Positions 24,842 to 29,745 of a stretch of DNA of 64,000 bases are shown here, piece by piece. The DNA is from Rhizobium sp. Root274 (GTDB lineage: Bacteria; Pseudomonadota; Alphaproteobacteria; Rhizobiales; Rhizobiaceae): the NCBI RefSeq assembly GCF_001429245.1, contig NZ_LMJE01000008.1, positions 372,001 through 436,000 on the forward strand, in the 5' to 3' direction. The notes beneath the pieces were generated by a model. The model had not been told where the DNA came from. It searched no databases and saw only the letters and a list, made by a program, of their open reading frames with translations. The translations under genes were made by a program, and so were the position numbers. The stretch's first letter is position 1. Every line of letters begins with the position of its first letter.

Positions 24842-25573
24842 TCAGGCCTGTGTCATCACGCTGCCGTCTCCCGAAACACGGACGCGCAGGTTGTTCTGAA
24901 CATGGGACACGCCGGAGACATGATCGGCGCAGTCTTCCGCCCGACGTTTTTCCCAGCGGTCGGTCACCTGACCCGTTAGCGTGACCTCACCACCGTCGAC
25001 ACTGACCTCGATGTCGGAGGCGTCGACTGAAGGATCGTCGCTCAGGCGGTCGTTGACCTCTTCGAGGATGCGGGCATCCGACCGGCGGTAGCCGCGTGGA
25101 CCCTTGCCCCGGTGATCGTCAGCCTCGCGTCGCCGACCGGCTTCATTGTCGCCAAACCAGGAAGAGACTTCATCCCGTGCCTTGTCGAAGAAGCCGCGGT
25201 CATCGTCGCGCCCGCGGTTGTAGCCCCGATACCTGTCGTCGTTGCCCCGACCTCCCGGACCGCCATAGCCCGGGCGGAACGCGTCGGCATAACGATTGGA
25301 GCGGCCATTGTCGCCATAACCCGGATCTGCCGGGTCGCCATTATAGCCGTAGGTTTCCCGCGGCCGTTCGGCCTGGCCCATCCGCGGATAACGCGAGCCG
25401 GAGCCGCCATAGCCGCCGTCATAGCCGAAGTCGCGCTGGCGGTCCGGGCCGTAACGGTCGGTATCCGGTCGATCTTCGCCATAGCCGCGCACGAAACCGC
25501 TTTCGCCCGGCGCGTAGTCGCCGCTCGGGCCTCGACGGTCACGACCGTTCCGGTTTTCGAATTCGTTGGCCAT
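24842..25573 (-). CDS. BON domain protein with Gly/Arg/Tyr-rich N-terminus
   Basis: A 243-residue protein. Residues 1-150 are low-complexity and rich in Gly, Arg, Asp and Tyr; SSWFGD follows, and a BON domain occupies about 165-235 (ILEEVNDRLSDDP, then VDGGEVTLTGQV and GVSHVQNNLRV). BON proteins are linked to osmotic and envelope stress. AGGAGG lies five bases before the ATG. A GGAAC-N18-TT promoter site stands upstream on this strand, divergent from an identical type of site for the ferritin-like gene, which supports general-stress induction. No signal peptide is visible. Confidence 0.85.
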   Translation of the reverse strand: MANEFENRNGRDRRGPSGDYAPGESGFVRGYGEDRPDTDRYGPDRQRDFGYDGGYGGSGSRYPRMGQAERPRETYGYNGDPADPGYGDNGRSNRYADAFRPGYGGPGGRGNDDRYRGYNRGRDDDRGFFDKARDEVSSWFGDNEAGRRREADDHRGKGPRGYRRSDARILEEVNDRLSDDPSVDASDIEVSVDGGEVTLTGQVTDRWEKRRAEDCADHVSGVSHVQNNLRVRVSGDGSVMTQA

Positions 25574-25621
25574 TCTTTCCTCCTTTTTTCGGTGAGGGAC
25601 GTCGAAGCGTCACATCAGGCC

Positions 25622-25646
25622 AACCGAGAAGGGCCGCGATCGTTCC
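25622..25646 (-). promoter_or_regulatory. EcfG/RpoE2-type promoter for the BON gene
   Basis: On the minus strand GGAAC (25646-25642) is followed after 18 bases by TT (25623-25622). This matches the rhizobial RpoE2/EcfG pattern GGAAC-N18/19-TT, 49 bp before the BON start codon. Confidence 0.75.
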
Positions 25647-25669
25647 GATCTGCATGACAAATATCCCCA

Positions 25670-25694
25670 GGAACAAAGCGTCCGGAGTCCGGTT
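25670..25694 (+). promoter_or_regulatory. EcfG/RpoE2-type promoter for the ferritin-like gene
   Basis: GGAAC at 25670-25674 followed after 18 bases by TT at 25693-25694, 34 bp before the start codon of the YciF-like gene. Confidence 0.75.
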
Positions 25695-25728
25695 GTTCGT
25701 GTGCAATTCCCACAAGAGGAGAAAACCC

Positions 25729-26232
25729 ATGGCTACGACCAAGACACTCGAAGACCTGTTCCACGAGACCCTGAAGGACATCTATTACGCCGAACGCAAG
25801 ATCCTGAAGGCGCTGCCGAAGATGGCGCGTGCCGCCCAGGACGAAAAGCTGAAGGCTGCCTTCCAGCAGCACAAGGACGAAACCGAAGGCCAGGTCGAGC
25901 GCCTGCAGCAGGTGTTCGAGATCATCGGTAAGCGTCCCCGCGCCAAGACCTGCCCCGCCATCGACGGCATCGTCGAGGAAAGCGAAGAGATCATGGAAGA
26001 ATTCAAGGGCTCGCCGGCTCTGGATGCGGGTCTGCTCGCAGCCGCACAGGCCGTTGAACACTATGAAATCAGCCGCTACGGCACCCTGAAGGCCTGGGCG
26101 CTGCAGCTCGGTTATAATGATGCGGTGAAGCTTCTCGATGAGACGCTGTCGGAAGAATCGAAGACCGACGAAGCGCTGACCAAGCTTGCCGAAAAGGCTG
26201 TCAACTCGGCTGCTCAGAAGAAGGCTGCCTGA
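25729..26232 (+). CDS. YciF-like ferritin-fold protein (DUF892)
   Basis: A 167-residue all-helical protein of the YciE/YciF family. It begins TTKTLEDLFHETLKDIYYAE and has two ferritin-like helix pairs with the metal-ligand pattern E-x6-Y and E-x2-H (QQHKDETEGQVERL and EHYEISRYG). Members of the family are induced by osmotic and general stress; exact activity is not known. The ATG at 25729 follows GAGGAG. The much longer open frame upstream is antisense to the BON gene and is not used. A GGAAC-type promoter lies just upstream. Confidence 0.93.
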   Translation: MATTKTLEDLFHETLKDIYYAERKILKALPKMARAAQDEKLKAAFQQHKDETEGQVERLQQVFEIIGKRPRAKTCPAIDGIVEESEEIMEEFKGSPALDAGLLAAAQAVEHYEISRYGTLKAWALQLGYNDAVKLLDETLSEESKTDEALTKLAEKAVNSAAQKKAA

Positions 26233-26256
26233 TCTCAGGCTCTTCTTTCCCATGCA

Positions 26257-26281
26257 AAAGGCCCGGCTTGTCCGGGCCTTT
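26257..26281. terminator. Bidirectional terminator between ferritin-like and topoisomerase genes
   Basis: A perfect 10-bp stem AAAGGCCCGG/CCGGGCCTTT with a 5-base loop, flanked by TTT on one side and TTTTG when read on the other strand. It serves the two convergent genes. Confidence 0.85.
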
Positions 26282-26286
26282 CTGCG

Positions 26287-27363
26287 TCAGGCGTCGGGAG
26301 GGGTGAAGGGACCGCCTTCGAGGAAGGCCATCAGGCGGTTTTCGTCCGCCCGCAGCAGCGCGTGACCCGTGGAAGCGCTGACGACAGCCTTCACGGCTGA
26401 GAGATCGGTTTCCTTGTCGCTTAGCGCCAGGATAGCAGGATGCACGTAACTCGACCGGCAGATGGTCGGCGTGTTGTGCAGCCGGTCGGAAGCCACTTCG
26501 CACATCCGGCGGATCGTCGGACGCTCATCCGCCTGCATCATTTTCCAGGCCTCGCCAAAAGCGGCGACGCTGCCACCCCAGGTGCGAAAGGTCTTGGCGG
26601 ACAAGGAATGACCCGTGATCTGGGCGAGATAGGCGTTCAGCCGGCCGGAATCGATCCGGTGCAGGCTACCGTCCCGGTCTCGCCAGGAAAACAGGTCACG
26701 GCCAGGCAGGTCGGCGATTTCTTCAAGGATTTTCTGCAGGCGGGGATGGCGCAGCTTGCGGCGCACACGCTTGCCGCCCTTGGCGGTGAAGCTCAGGCGG
26801 ATGCCGTCCTGTTCGAAGGTGAGGTGCCGCTTCTGCAGCGTCGTTGCGCCATAGGTCTTGTTTTCCTCGACATAGGTGCGATTGCCGACGCGCATATAGG
26901 TGACGTCGAGAAGGCTGACGAGCGCGGACAAGAGAAAGGGCGTTTCCTGTGTCCGGTCTTCGAGGTCGCGCAAGACCCGCCGGCGGATGATCGGCAAGGC
27001 GTGGCCGAAGGTGACGAGATCGCCGAATTTGCGGGTGCTGCGCCAGGAGGCCCAGTCTGCGTGGTAGCGATATTGCTTGCGACCCCGGGCATCGAGCCCG
27101 GTCGCCTGGAGGTGGCCCCTCGGCTCCAGCGAAATCCAGACCCGGTCATAAGCGGGGGGCAGGGCCAGGCGCCGAATCCTTTGGAGAATCGTATCGTCCG
27201 TAAGCCTTGTTCCATCCGGAAGATGGTAGGAAAATCCCGCGCCTCTGCGTCGGCGCGATATGCCCGGCATATTGTCTGTGGTGTAGACGAGGCCGATCTC
27301 TTCAAGTTCGGCCCGATCTTCGGGAAGCGGGTTTAACGGCTGCTCGTCGTCAGGGTTACGCAT
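26287..27363 (-). CDS. DNA topoisomerase IB
   Basis: A 358-residue bacterial (poxvirus-like) type IB topoisomerase, which relaxes supercoils through a 3'-phosphotyrosyl intermediate. The motifs are ARGRKQYRYH, KTFRTWGGSV and, for the catalytic tyrosine, CRSSYVHPAI. The ATG at 27363 overlaps the stop of the sigma factor gene in an ATGA, so translation is coupled; a longer frame from 27465 would sit inside the sigma gene. Coupling of a topoisomerase to a stress sigma factor suggests it is made under stress. Confidence 0.92.
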   Translation of the reverse strand: MRNPDDEQPLNPLPEDRAELEEIGLVYTTDNMPGISRRRRGAGFSYHLPDGTRLTDDTILQRIRRLALPPAYDRVWISLEPRGHLQATGLDARGRKQYRYHADWASWRSTRKFGDLVTFGHALPIIRRRVLRDLEDRTQETPFLLSALVSLLDVTYMRVGNRTYVEENKTYGATTLQKRHLTFEQDGIRLSFTAKGGKRVRRKLRHPRLQKILEEIADLPGRDLFSWRDRDGSLHRIDSGRLNAYLAQITGHSLSAKTFRTWGGSVAAFGEAWKMMQADERPTIRRMCEVASDRLHNTPTICRSSYVHPAILALSDKETDLSAVKAVVSASTGHALLRADENRLMAFLEGGPFTPPDA

Positions 27364-27887
27364 CAGCCGACCGGACTGTCGGTGCCCATTTCGCCGAGTT
27401 CGCGGCGAAGCTGCTGGCGCGCGCGGCTGAGACGACTTTTGACCGTTCCCACAGCGCAGCCGCAAATCTCGGCCGCATCTTCGTAACGCTCACCCAGCAT
27501 GACGATCAAAACCAGCATTTCGCGGTGATGCTCGGGAAGACGATCGAGCGCACGGCGCACTTCATCGGCCTGGACAGTCCATTCCTGGGTTGCTTCCGTG
27601 GTCAGTCTGGCGCTGACCCCTTCGGGAAGGCCGATGGTTTCACGACTGCTCTTCTTGAAACGGGTGCAGAAGGTATTGCGCATGATGGTGAAGAGCCAGG
27701 ATTTCAACCGCGTGCCCGGCTCGAATTTGTCGAGATTGGCGAGCGCTTTGGTCAGCGTTTCCTGGACGAGATCGTCGGCCTCTTCGGGCTTTGGGCAAAA
27801 GGTGCGCGCAAAGGCCCGCAGCGCCGGAATGAGTTCCACGACTTCGGACTGTGCGGCAAGCTCGGCTCTGCGTGTGCGGGTGTTCAA
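27363..27887 (-). CDS. ECF sigma factor, EcfG-like general stress sigma
   Basis: A 174-residue ECF sigma factor. Region 2 reads ALRAFARTFCPKPEEADDLVQET and SWLFTIMRN, and region 4 has YEDAAEICGCAVGTVKSRLSRAR. These closely follow the EcfG (ECF15) pattern of alphaproteobacteria. The TTG start at 27887 is chosen because GGAGGAG lies about seven bases upstream and the length fits the family; an ATG at 27956 has no ribosome site. The downstream topoisomerase overlaps it. It likely recognises the GGAAC-type promoters seen nearby (inference). Confidence 0.88.
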   Translation of the reverse strand: MNTRTRRAELAAQSEVVELIPALRAFARTFCPKPEEADDLVQETLTKALANLDKFEPGTRLKSWLFTIMRNTFCTRFKKSSRETIGLPEGVSARLTTEATQEWTVQADEVRRALDRLPEHHREMLVLIVMLGERYEDAAEICGCAVGTVKSRLSRARQQLRRELGEMGTDSPVG

Positions 27888-27993
27888 GTCACACTCCTCC
27901 AATGGTACTGGACGCCGCGGTGCCCGCCGAACCTTCTGAAATGGCCATCGGCCCAAACAGCAGGGGGGTGGACACGACCGGCAGGCATGGCGA

Positions 27994-28257
27994 TCAGCTT
28001 CGGCTCACGAACTTGGAAAAACGGCTCAGTTTGCCGTCTGCCGTTCGATCCTGGTGCAGAAAGGCCAAGTCGCTCTTCTCAAACACCGAAAAGAAGTCAT
28101 CCCATTCCATCGGCTCCAGGTTTTCCTCCTGTTCGCCGAAATCGACGCGAAGAATTCCGCCTTCGCCGCTATCCTTGACGCGTGACGGCGTACCCTCTCG
28201 CTCCTCGATCCAGCGGCGGATCTCCTCATGATCCGTAGTCTGGTTTGCGCTGCTCAT
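27994..28257 (-). CDS. Conserved small acidic protein, function unknown
   Basis: An 87-residue protein: HEEIRRWIEEREG, then VDFGEQEENLEPMEWDDFF and ending FSKFVSRS. This conserved rhizobial family is often labelled 1,4-alpha-glucan branching protein in databases, but nothing in it resembles a glycosyl hydrolase, so I leave the function open. The ATG at 28257 is chosen because it gives the conserved start; the frame from 28329 overlaps the promoter. A GGAAC-N18-TT site lies 43 bp upstream, and the sigma factor gene follows after about 106 bp. Confidence 0.82.
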   Translation of the reverse strand: MSSANQTTDHEEIRRWIEEREGTPSRVKDSGEGGILRVDFGEQEENLEPMEWDDFFSVFEKSDLAFLHQDRTADGKLSRFSKFVSRS

Positions 28258-28299
28258 GGTTGCCTCGTGCTGAAAACGCTCCTGAATTTTCGTCACATC

Positions 28300-28324
28300 A
28301 ACGTGTGGTCGTGGCGACAGTTCC
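28300..28324 (-). promoter_or_regulatory. EcfG/RpoE2-type promoter for the small acidic protein and sigma operon
   Basis: On the minus strand GGAAC (28324-28320) is followed after 16 bases by CGTT (28303-28300), the full GGAAC-N16-CGTT form. Read-through would also transcribe the sigma factor and topoisomerase genes. Confidence 0.8.
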
Positions 28325-28347
28325 CTCAATGAGGTGCTTTTTCAAAG

Positions 28348-28372
28348 GGAACATCTCTCGTCAGGCGGTGTT
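28348..28372 (+). promoter_or_regulatory. EcfG/RpoE2-type promoter for the 127-aa protein gene
   Basis: GGAAC at 28348-28352, then 18 bases, then TT at 28371-28372, 33 bp before the start at 28406. It is divergent from the site at 28324. Confidence 0.75.
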
Positions 28373-28405
28373 TGCTTGTTCATTCGCGGAATGAAAGGAC
28401 CTTGC

Positions 28406-28789
28406 ATGGCGCATCTCGAGAACGCAGACGGACAGGGGCAGCTGCTGATAGGCGAGCGTCTTTCGCCGGTTTCCTATCATGTGACCGTAGAAGAAAGAGA
28501 CGAGCAGCTGGTCGCCAAGGTAAACCTCCAGGCGCCTCGCGACTGGTTGATCAAACAAGGTTTCAAAAAACGGGCGACGCTTGTGCGGGCCTCGGGTGAT
28601 CGCGTCGAAGTTCTGCACGACGGCGAAGTGGATGTTGCGGATAGCTTGAGCATCGTGCTTGAGGCCGATGATCTCGTCTATGCGCGTGCGGATGCATTGC
28701 TGGACGCCTTCCCCGAACTGGAACTGAGCAGCGACGCCGCGGAGCGCATAAAAAAGGTCGGGTCTAAAGATCCGGACAGCACCGATTGA
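28406..28789 (+). CDS. Hypothetical stress-associated protein
   Basis: A 127-residue protein that I do not recognise. It begins MAHLENADGQGQLLIGERL and has an alternating beta-strand pattern (VSYHVTVEER, QLVAKVNLQ, RATLVRASGDRVEVLHDGEVDV), followed by a helical acidic C-terminus. No membrane segment or signal peptide is present. AAGGA lies seven bases before the ATG at 28406; another ATG 15 bases upstream is less well placed. A GGAAC-type promoter precedes it, and the NepR-like gene follows after 68 bp, so both may be co-expressed in general stress. Confidence 0.75.
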   Translation: MAHLENADGQGQLLIGERLSPVSYHVTVEERDEQLVAKVNLQAPRDWLIKQGFKKRATLVRASGDRVEVLHDGEVDVADSLSIVLEADDLVYARADALLDAFPELELSSDAAERIKKVGSKDPDSTD

Positions 28790-28857
28790 CGTAGAACCCG
28801 AGGACGCCGCAGTTCTATACTGCGCGCCCATCAGATGCATGCTTATCGGAGAAACAG

Positions 28858-29037
28858 ATGTCACAATCAGCGGGAAGCTCTATCCCTGGCAGGCGCGACC
28901 GGACGGGCGGTATCGTGCGGGACAAGCTCGATCTGCTGATGATCGAGCTGGAGCGGGAGAAAGTCCCGCAAAACCTCGTCGACCTTGCGCAGGATCTGCA
29001 GAAGGCCCTGGACGAAAAGTTTCCGAAGGAAGATTAA
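28858..29037 (+). CDS. NepR-like small anti-sigma factor candidate
   Basis: A 59-residue ORF, MSQSAGSSIP at the start and LDEKFPKED at the end. The central part reads IVRDKLDLLMIELEREKVP followed by NLVDLAQDLQKAL. NepR proteins have two helices joined by a short linker with a conserved proline (typically EPVPDRFLxLL), and the KVPQNLVDLAQDL segment fits that layout. A CGGAGA box lies eight bases upstream. In alphaproteobacteria NepR holds the EcfG sigma factor until PhyR releases it. The nearby EcfG-like gene supports the call; the match is by eye only. Confidence 0.6.
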   Translation: MSQSAGSSIPGRRDRTGGIVRDKLDLLMIELEREKVPQNLVDLAQDLQKALDEKFPKED

Positions 29038-29043
29038 GAGCCG

Positions 29044-29068
29044 GGAACCTTTCAGGCTACCGCCGGTT
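29044..29068 (+). promoter_or_regulatory. EcfG/RpoE2-type promoter for the 62-aa membrane protein gene
   Basis: GGAAC at 29044-29048, 18 bases, then TT at 29067-29068 (GGTT form), 41 bp before the start at 29110. Confidence 0.75.
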
Positions 29069-29109
29069 GGCAACGGTACAAGCCCTCTCACACTGAGCGA
29101 GGTGTTCCG

Positions 29110-29298
29110 ATGACCGATCTGTTCTGGCTGATGGCGGTAACGCTGGGTCCTGTCATTCTCGCAGGTGCCATCATCTATGCGCTGATGCGGCAAAGGCGTC
29201 TTCGACCAGATGAACAAAGACGCAGTGATGCTGCGGCTAGAGAACTCTACCAGCAGGACGAAAATGCCGATACACGGCATCTCGGAGGACGCTCGTGA
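29110..29298 (+). CDS. Small single-span membrane protein
   Basis: A 62-residue protein with one hydrophobic helix (about residues 4-25, FWLMAVTLGPVILAGAIIYA) and a basic, then acidic, cytoplasmic tail (RQRRLRPDEQRR). The family is not recognised. Its own GGAAC-N18-TT promoter lies upstream, which ties it to the general stress regulon. The GAGG before the ATG supports translation. Confidence 0.72.
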   Translation: MTDLFWLMAVTLGPVILAGAIIYALMRQRRLRPDEQRRSDAAARELYQQDENADTRHLGGRS

Positions 29299-29309
29299 CA
29301 AGGCCTCGA

Positions 29310-29543
29310 TCAGGTAAATGTGCCGTCGGTCGGGTTATAACGCTTGCCCTTGGCAAGCATGGCGAGCTCAACAAGTTCGTCCTCGTCCCGCACCCCGTTC
29401 TCCACGAGATAGAACAACAGGGCCGTGGCGTTTTCCTGCCCAGGTCCTTCTAACACCACGGATGCGCCGTCATTGATGCGGCTGACAGCACGCTCGACGA
29501 TATTGGCCGCATCAGCCTTCAAGCCGGAAGATCTTGGAGTCAT
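29310..29543 (-). CDS. Hypothetical protein, 77 residues
   Basis: A small soluble protein of unknown function, beginning MTPRSSGLKADAANIVERAV and ending KRYNPTDGTFT. The segment LVENGVRDEDELVELAMLAKG is predicted helical. GGAGGG is placed six bases before the ATG at 29543, whereas the upstream ATG at 29603 lacks such a site. It is convergent with the small membrane protein gene and divergent from nothing recognisable. No GGAAC-type promoter was found in front of it, unlike its neighbours. Confidence 0.68.
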   Translation of the reverse strand: MTPRSSGLKADAANIVERAVSRINDGASVVLEGPGQENATALLFYLVENGVRDEDELVELAMLAKGKRYNPTDGTFT

Positions 29544-29668: not shown

Positions 29669-29745
29669 TGGTGATCCCGACGCGATTCGAACGCGTGACC
29701 CTCAGATTAGGAATCTGATGCTCTATCCTGCTGAGCTACGGGACC
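29669..29745 (-). tRNA. tRNA-Arg (anticodon CCT)
   Basis: A 77-nt cloverleaf on the minus strand with encoded CCA. The acceptor stem GGTCCCG pairs with CGGGATC (one G-T wobble), the D-arm holds AGCTCAGC, the anticodon loop is TTCCTAA, and the T-arm contains GTTCGAATC. The anticodon CCT reads AGG arginine codons. Confidence 0.95.

Follow-up and report, generated by a model that had tools for sequence, protein, structure and literature searches.

Gene content of the island and its candidate promoters

We analysed a 64-kb window of the Rhizobium sp. Root274 genome (C8:372001-436000; 4.56 Mb in 14 contigs, G000, with C7, C8 and C10 among them) and, within that window, a 4.7-kb segment at positions 24842..29543, hereafter the island, which an earlier note on this DNA had described as a compact general-stress cluster served by five EcfG-type promoters. 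The gene list given there was borne out: the island encodes a BON-domain protein, a DUF892/YciF-type protein, an acidic protein of 87 amino acids (aa), an extracytoplasmic function (ECF) sigma factor, DNA topoisomerase IB, and proteins of 127, 59 and 62 aa (Table 1). The ATG of the topoisomerase IB gene overlaps the stop codon of the sigma factor gene, as read from the sequence.

Table 1. Features of the island, in window coordinates (ORF, open reading frame).
Feature	Position	Strand	Basis
BON-domain protein, 243 aa	24842..25573	-	Pfam BON 3.8e-20; SWFGD domain too
EcfG-type promoter of BON gene, ends CGGTT (predicted)	25622..25646	-	GGAAC-N18-TT match; conserved in relatives
EcfG-type promoter of YciF/DUF892 gene (predicted)	25670..25694	+	GGAAC-N18-TT match; conserved in relatives
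YciF-like protein (DUF892), 167 aa	25729..26232	+	Pfam DUF892 2.1e-62
DNA topoisomerase IB	26287..27363	-	Pfam Topoisom_I 2.6e-23, Top1B_N_bact 5.6e-22
ECF sigma factor, RpoE5/secondary-EcfG clade	27363..27887	-	domain matches, tree; TTG start probable, chosen from sequence
Small acidic protein, 87 aa, head of sigma operon	27994..28257	-	ORF; no family over cut-off
EcfG-type promoter of 87-aa/sigma/topoisomerase genes, ends CGTT (predicted)	28300..28324	-	motif match; conserved in relatives
T-tract between divergent 28324-/28348+ promoters	28337..28343		TTTTTC in 13/16 aligned loci by eye (L080 sequence incomplete at this position)
EcfG-type promoter of 127-aa gene (and NepR-like gene by inferred read-through) (predicted)	28348..28372	+	motif match; conserved
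127-aa protein, no curated family	28406..28789	+	no Pfam/NCBIfam match
59-aa diverged NepR-family protein, putative anti-sigma factor, here named NepR3	28858..29037	+	profile searches
EcfG-type promoter of 62-aa protein (predicted)	29044..29068	+	GGAAC-N18-TT match; conserved in relatives
62-aa protein, no curated family	29110..29298	+	below-cut-off weak matches only

All five exact GGAAC-N18-TT sites reported earlier (25646-, 25670+, 28324-, 28348+ and 29044+) are present. They precede start codons, as had been claimed, with gaps from TT to start codon of 48, 34, 42, 33 and 41 bp, respectively; the measured range is therefore 33-48 bp, and not 33 to 49 bp. The BON and YciF promoters stand back to back with their GGAAC 5′ ends 24 bp apart in the window, an arrangement and distance repeated by the 28324- and 28348+ promoters. 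Each of the five sites also reads as GGAAC-N17-GTT and fits the Sphingomonas EcfG consensus GGAAC-N17-20-GTT, while the stricter GGAAC-N16-CGTT consensus of Rhizobium etli EcfG1 is matched by one of five (28324- only). An EcfG site is listed for topoisomerase IB in Sphingomonas.

The earlier note had also proposed a genome scan of motif density, and its outcome was divided. In the window the loose pattern GGAAC-N18/19-TT was mildly enriched, with 16 matches against 9.26 (standard deviation 3.15) in shuffled sequences and at least 16 in 2/100 shuffles, but genome-wide there was no enrichment (701 matches versus 1153 for the reversed control pattern). Since the loose motif is rarer across the genome than its reversed control, a single site proves nothing, and bare motif counting was rejected as proof. 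With the complete -10 element, GGAAC-N16/17-CGTT occurred 85 times genome-wide against 50.9 expected from spacings 18-30 (Poisson 8e-6), and GGAAC-N16/17-GGTT 57 times against 47.1 (Poisson 0.09). Together these 142 sites in 4.56 Mb correspond to 0.146 per 4.7 kb, and the island has four (Poisson 1.7e-5, for one stretch). The only other place with four CGTT or GGTT sites in 4.7 kb, judged by eye from the two lists, was the canonical phyR-nepR-ecfG locus (C7:1050012-1055476, within L003), where two NepR genes, PhyR and EcfG are accompanied by six GGAAC-N16/17-CGTT sites in 5.5 kb. Divergent pairs of GGAAC sites numbered eight in the genome and none for the reversed control. A fixed back-to-back spacing of 24/25 bp was rejected as a general rule, as the pairs listed for the genome vary in spacing (by eye) and some fall within coding sequence.

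Conservation of the promoters in relatives

A sigma factor match at E <= 1e-45 was found in 39/80 genomes searched, our own included, and 37 loci around such sigma genes were compared together with the window, which is included in all counts; a site was counted if it lay within 220 bp before a gene. A GGAAC site precedes the YciF gene in 28/28 loci, the 127-aa gene in 20/20, the 87-aa gene in 17/18, and the BON and 62-aa genes in 12/14 each. The two BON exceptions (L074 and L075) are partial tblastn matches, and a minus-strand site was found there too. Spacing in the relatives is N18 or N19, and not N18 throughout.

Conservation is concentrated on the motif itself. In an alignment of the BON-YciF intergenic region (12 loci; L074 and L075 omitted because their BON match is partial) the mean majority-base frequency was 0.964 in the site cores, 0.690 in the spacers and 0.669 elsewhere, and in the 87-aa/127-aa intergenic region (16 loci) it was 0.912, 0.536 and 0.580, respectively (core versus surroundings, Mann-Whitney 6e-7 and 1e-8; the loci are not independent). 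The back-to-back distance between GGAAC motifs is 24 or 25 bp in 11/12 BON-YciF loci and 14/16 87-aa/127-aa loci, the exceptions being distances of 46 and 71 and one incomplete region without a pair. We regard this conservation of orthologous sites as the decisive evidence that the sites are more than chance matches, and it gives good support to the proposal that five EcfG-type promoters serve a general-stress island here. The T-tract between the 28324- and 28348+ promoters may be UP-element-like.

The sigma factor gene itself has a GGAAC site within the same distance in 30/38 loci, with a CGTT ending in 27. It lacks one in the window, L072-L075, L097, L101 and L104; in the window group the aligned stretch has lost the motif, and the sigma gene would depend on the promoter of the 87-aa gene. 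A terminator scan listed none on the minus strand between the 87-aa and sigma genes.

Several relatives carry self-complementary overlapping sites (GGAAC-N-GTTCC), in which nearly the same bases match the EcfG consensus whichever strand is read (L078 8855/8881, L080 8766/8792, L083 8917/8943 and L089 9398/9424), which we set aside as expected from the symmetry of the motif. A separate observation is a very tight back-to-back EcfG-type pair, with 8-9 bp from GTTCC to GGAAC and A/T-rich flanks, that adjoins a NepR gene in six loci (L053, L056, L059, L062, L063 and L070, around 1501-1560).

The island sigma factor is of the RpoE5 type

Three domains were matched over cut-off by the island sigma factor (Sigma70_r2 1.9e-16, Sigma70_r4_2 8.4e-16 and PhyR_sigma2 6.2e-12), and by sequence we assign it to the ECF15/EcfG-type sigma factors, using the group name that RpoE5 bears in the Sinorhizobium meliloti literature. 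It is 45% identical to the canonical EcfG of the same genome. A tree of 118 different sigma factors split a 34-row canonical clade (98/92), which contains the genome's own EcfG, from an 80-row clade (99/86) that holds the island sigma together with S. meliloti RpoE5 (L144); several branches of this tree are long, and how they join is uncertain. L144 was recognised as rpoE5 because its promoter differs from the published one at a single base in the stretch compared. The island sigma is thus separate from canonical EcfG, whose gene sits with nepR1, nepR2 and phyR on C7, and no PhyR was found within the island. The 'EcfG-like sigma' of the earlier note stands as an EcfG-type factor, refined by the tree to the RpoE5 (secondary) type and not canonical EcfG. 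The genome encodes another sigma factor matching PhyR_sigma2 (C10:57747-58208, on a 143-kb contig), which is 36% identical to the island sigma.

A distant NepR relative beside the sigma factor

The 59-aa protein matched no Pfam or NCBIfam family at E 1, including the Pfam NepR family PF18557 (0 families), and scored 6.5 bits against a purpose-built NepR profile. Its relationship to NepR emerged from searches with the whole family. An iterative search over 30606 ORFs picked up neighbours of RpoE5-type sigma genes in Sinorhizobium, Mesorhizobium and Neorhizobium and by round five had taken in 16 canonical NepRs (best E 5.6e-8); control profiles of four neighbouring small proteins gathered their own relatives and no NepR. 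The 87-aa protein was rejected as an anti-sigma candidate because its profile never reaches NepR. Aligned with canonical NepR by hhalign, the 59-aa family scored 86.9% (E 4.2e-6, 36 columns). The top three PDB matches were NepR chains, all weak (E 0.01-0.28). Pfam NepR was reported for 3/21 family members (best 6.1e-4), and no other family matched more than a single member. With helices named as in NepR structures, the canonical helix-1 motif KLR.YYD is not kept, and helix 2 reads LA..LQ.AL.

The reading frame appears to be under selection: substitutions at first, second and third codon positions numbered 1940:1256:4076 in 20 genus loci and 24:13:59 in three Sinorhizobium/Ensifer loci, and third positions changed most and second positions least in 4/4 groups tested, Sinorhizobium/Ensifer included. 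On profile homology we consider the 59-aa protein a distant NepR relative; the 'NepR-like ORF' named in the earlier note was correctly recognised, although Pfam misses it.

The family also keeps company with this type of sigma factor. Counting NepR-family ORFs at >=20 bits within 6 kb of a sigma gene, and leaving out the redundant loci L109, L110 and L116 and the loci L150, L152 and L153 that fall outside both clades, we found one in 50/79 RpoE5-type loci, the nearest on the opposite strand in 48/50, and in 30/34 canonical loci, the nearest on the same strand in 28/30. Exceptions to this strand rule include a Caulobacter locus of the canonical sigma clade with an opposite-strand ORF (L154 8524-8754) and two Paracoccaceae loci of the other (80-row) clade with a same-strand ORF (L143 7306-7830 and L148 7518-7766). 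Among 48 genus genomes, the 59-aa family was present at E <= 1e-4 in 32/37 with the sigma factor and 0/11 without it (Fisher 1.9e-7; the genomes are not independent). Weaker matches in two of the 11 sigma-less genomes (5.5e-4 and 9.3e-4) are taken for canonical NepRs. With 12 further genomes added, 42/60 genus genomes gave a match at E <= 0.001.

A candidate feedback-controlled branch of the general stress response

On balance we favour reading the island as a secondary, feedback-controlled arm of the general stress response, equipped with a sigma/anti-sigma pair of its own. Within this scheme we infer that the promoters are active, which sigma factor reads each of them, that read-through extends to the 59-aa gene, and that the proteins bind. 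A PhyR/NepR partner switch, whose genes lie on a different contig, would release EcfG, and EcfG-holoenzyme would turn on the five GGAAC-N18-TT promoters. One of these would drive an operon of the 87-aa acidic protein, the RpoE5-type sigma and topoisomerase IB, and the sigma would then boost its own promoter and probably similar ones. Expression of the 127-aa protein would start from the divergent promoter and, by read-through, take in the NepR-family protein, which most likely binds and limits the RpoE5-type sigma and so would provide a built-in negative feedback. The BON, YciF-type and 62-aa proteins would be effectors.

Several observations speak against this interpretation. For the NepR assignment, Pfam reported no match for the 59-aa protein even at E 10, the LR..Y of canonical NepR is absent from it, and neither the reversed control profile nor any of the eight shuffled ones gathered a single sequence, which leaves only the four neighbour profiles as informative controls. 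For the pairing, 29/79 RpoE5-type loci have no NepR-family ORF within 6 kb (these include L092-L094, though their near relatives L091 and L095 have one and the L092 genome has one about 19 kb away), and 5/37 sigma-bearing genus genomes lack the 59-aa family at E 1e-4. For the regulation, a GGAAC site lies close upstream of the NepR-family ORF in 3/46 loci, redundant loci included, and stress control of this ORF is therefore not a general rule; in window-type loci the promoter is farther off, before the 127-aa gene. For the known relatives, overexpression of S. meliloti RpoE5 yielded a single putative target, and of the Methylobacterium extorquens NepR paralogues two bind PhyR and none showed sigma binding (PMC4814048).

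The -10 elements bear on which sigma factor would read the sites. Where both spacings matched we chose the one giving GTT; by this count 42/48 sites before the sigma or 87-aa gene end in CGTT, against 4/79 before the BON, YciF, 127-aa and 62-aa genes (Fisher 3.8e-23 with one distant site omitted, 42/47; the loci are not independent). Two of the six non-CGTT exceptions belong to 87-aa homologues away from the sigma gene (L101 and L102). We read the difference between classes as promoter tuning. A stronger proposal, that canonical EcfG reads the CGTT sites driving the sigma while the island sigma reads the non-CGTT sites of the effectors and NepR3, would explain why the class is nearly fixed for each promoter and why, at the right spacing, the genome as a whole is enriched for CGTT and hardly for GGTT. 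We nevertheless hold it to be very unlikely, because GGTT sites are listed among Sphingomonas EcfG targets and because non-CGTT YciF promoters persist where no match to the sigma factor was found. In four of the 11 genus genomes with no sigma match at E 1e-45, YciF orthologues of 83-85% identity keep GGAAC-N18/19-GTT promoters (G019 GGTT, G008 TGTT, G013 TGTT and G034 AGTT), and GGTT, or non-CGTT, was accordingly not supported as a private -10 element of the island sigma. In six others the only DUF892 relatives are of <=68% identity, and their sites vary in class (TGTT, CGTT, GGTT) or are absent; G021 gave no match.

Because YciF orthologues keep their promoter in genomes without an island sigma match, canonical EcfG probably reads at least the YciF site. 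This lends some weight to the view that all five promoters are ordinary targets of canonical EcfG, that few targets are specific to the island sigma, and that the clustering reflects gene order, a view with which the single putative RpoE5 target in S. meliloti and the breadth of the Sphingomonas consensus also agree. We find it doubtful, given that most loci retain a GGAAC site before the sigma gene itself and that R. etli EcfG2 has a partly distinct regulon, each sigma there preferring its own promoter (Jans et al., 2013, PMC3892343).

The partner of the 59-aa protein might also be PhyR or another NepR, in which case it would act one step higher in the switch without touching the sigma. The M. 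extorquens paralogues that bind PhyR offer a precedent, but the family tracks the RpoE5-type sigma, being absent from every sigma-less genus genome at E 1e-4 (the distribution of PhyR was not searched), and in the protein the canonical helix-1 motif is incomplete, and we judge this alternative unlikely. More speculatively, and with clear hesitation, the 59-aa protein could represent a third NepR subfamily, marked by an LA..LQ.AL helix 2, a helix 1 without LR..Y and an opposite-strand position, and missed by family models: a dedicated, PhyR-insensitive anti-sigma factor of RpoE5-type sigmas in the Rhizobiales and beyond, forming a separate switch with a non-PhyR input.

Comparison with known systems

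One of the closest described arrangements is the S. meliloti rpoE5 locus (SMb21484), whose sigma factor falls in the same clade as the island sigma. Lang et al. (2018, PMC6180224) noted an unannotated opposite-strand ORF there, similar to RsiA1/RsiA2, and left its role open; the presence of an RsiA-like ORF next to this sigma gene has been published. The same authors called for further work on this ORF and described the regulation of RpoE5 activity in S. meliloti as little known. In S. meliloti 4H41 we found a NepR-family ORF 63 bp downstream of rpoE5 on the opposite strand (L144 8519-8764), which is probably the published ORF. The two loci differ in layout: in S. meliloti the ORF is downstream of the sigma gene, on the strand opposite SMb21687, whereas the island ORF is upstream and divergent, behind the 127-aa gene, and the island sigma gene runs on into topoisomerase IB.

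The island resembles the canonical PhyR-NepR-EcfG switch in its NepR-family and EcfG-type partners and its GGAAC-N-GTT promoters, but it has no PhyR, and in the canonical switch NepR is encoded upstream of the sigma on the same strand in 28/30 loci, with a median gap of 30 bp. R. etli EcfG2 (PF00052) is likewise a secondary EcfG paralogue beside a canonical switch, and, unlike the island sigma with its putative one, it has no anti-sigma gene nearby according to Jans et al. M. extorquens, likened here by description only, has further NepR homologues, among them one whose EcfG-type promoter is stress-induced (PMC4814048). Half of completed alphaproteobacterial genomes are reported to contain two or more EcfG-type sigma factors.

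No title or abstract opening describing the 59-aa family across genera was found in a literature search that included few subscription papers. The occurrence of this ORF family next to RpoE5-type sigma genes of several genera, and its codon-level selection in the four groups tested, mark it as the likely sigma partner and open the question to direct binding tests. A natural comparison exists within the genus: 11/48 genomes lack a sigma match at E 1e-45, and none of these has the NepR-family partner at E 1e-4.

Other features of the island

The 127-aa protein has 42 relatives at E <= 0.001, itself included, and its AlphaFold model (predicted local distance difference test score, pLDDT, 76.6) is abundant in beta strands. 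The 62-aa protein is, judging from its hydrophobic N-terminal stretch, a membrane protein. Named relatives of the island's small proteins come from Rhizobium wuzhouense, R. glycinendophyticum, R. rosettiformans, Peteryoungia aggregata and Allorhizobium. In UniRef some 87-aa homologues bear the name 1,4-alpha-glucan branching enzyme, apparently in error given how short the protein is. Just past the end of the island, at window positions 29669-29745, lies a tRNA-Arg gene (anticodon CCT).

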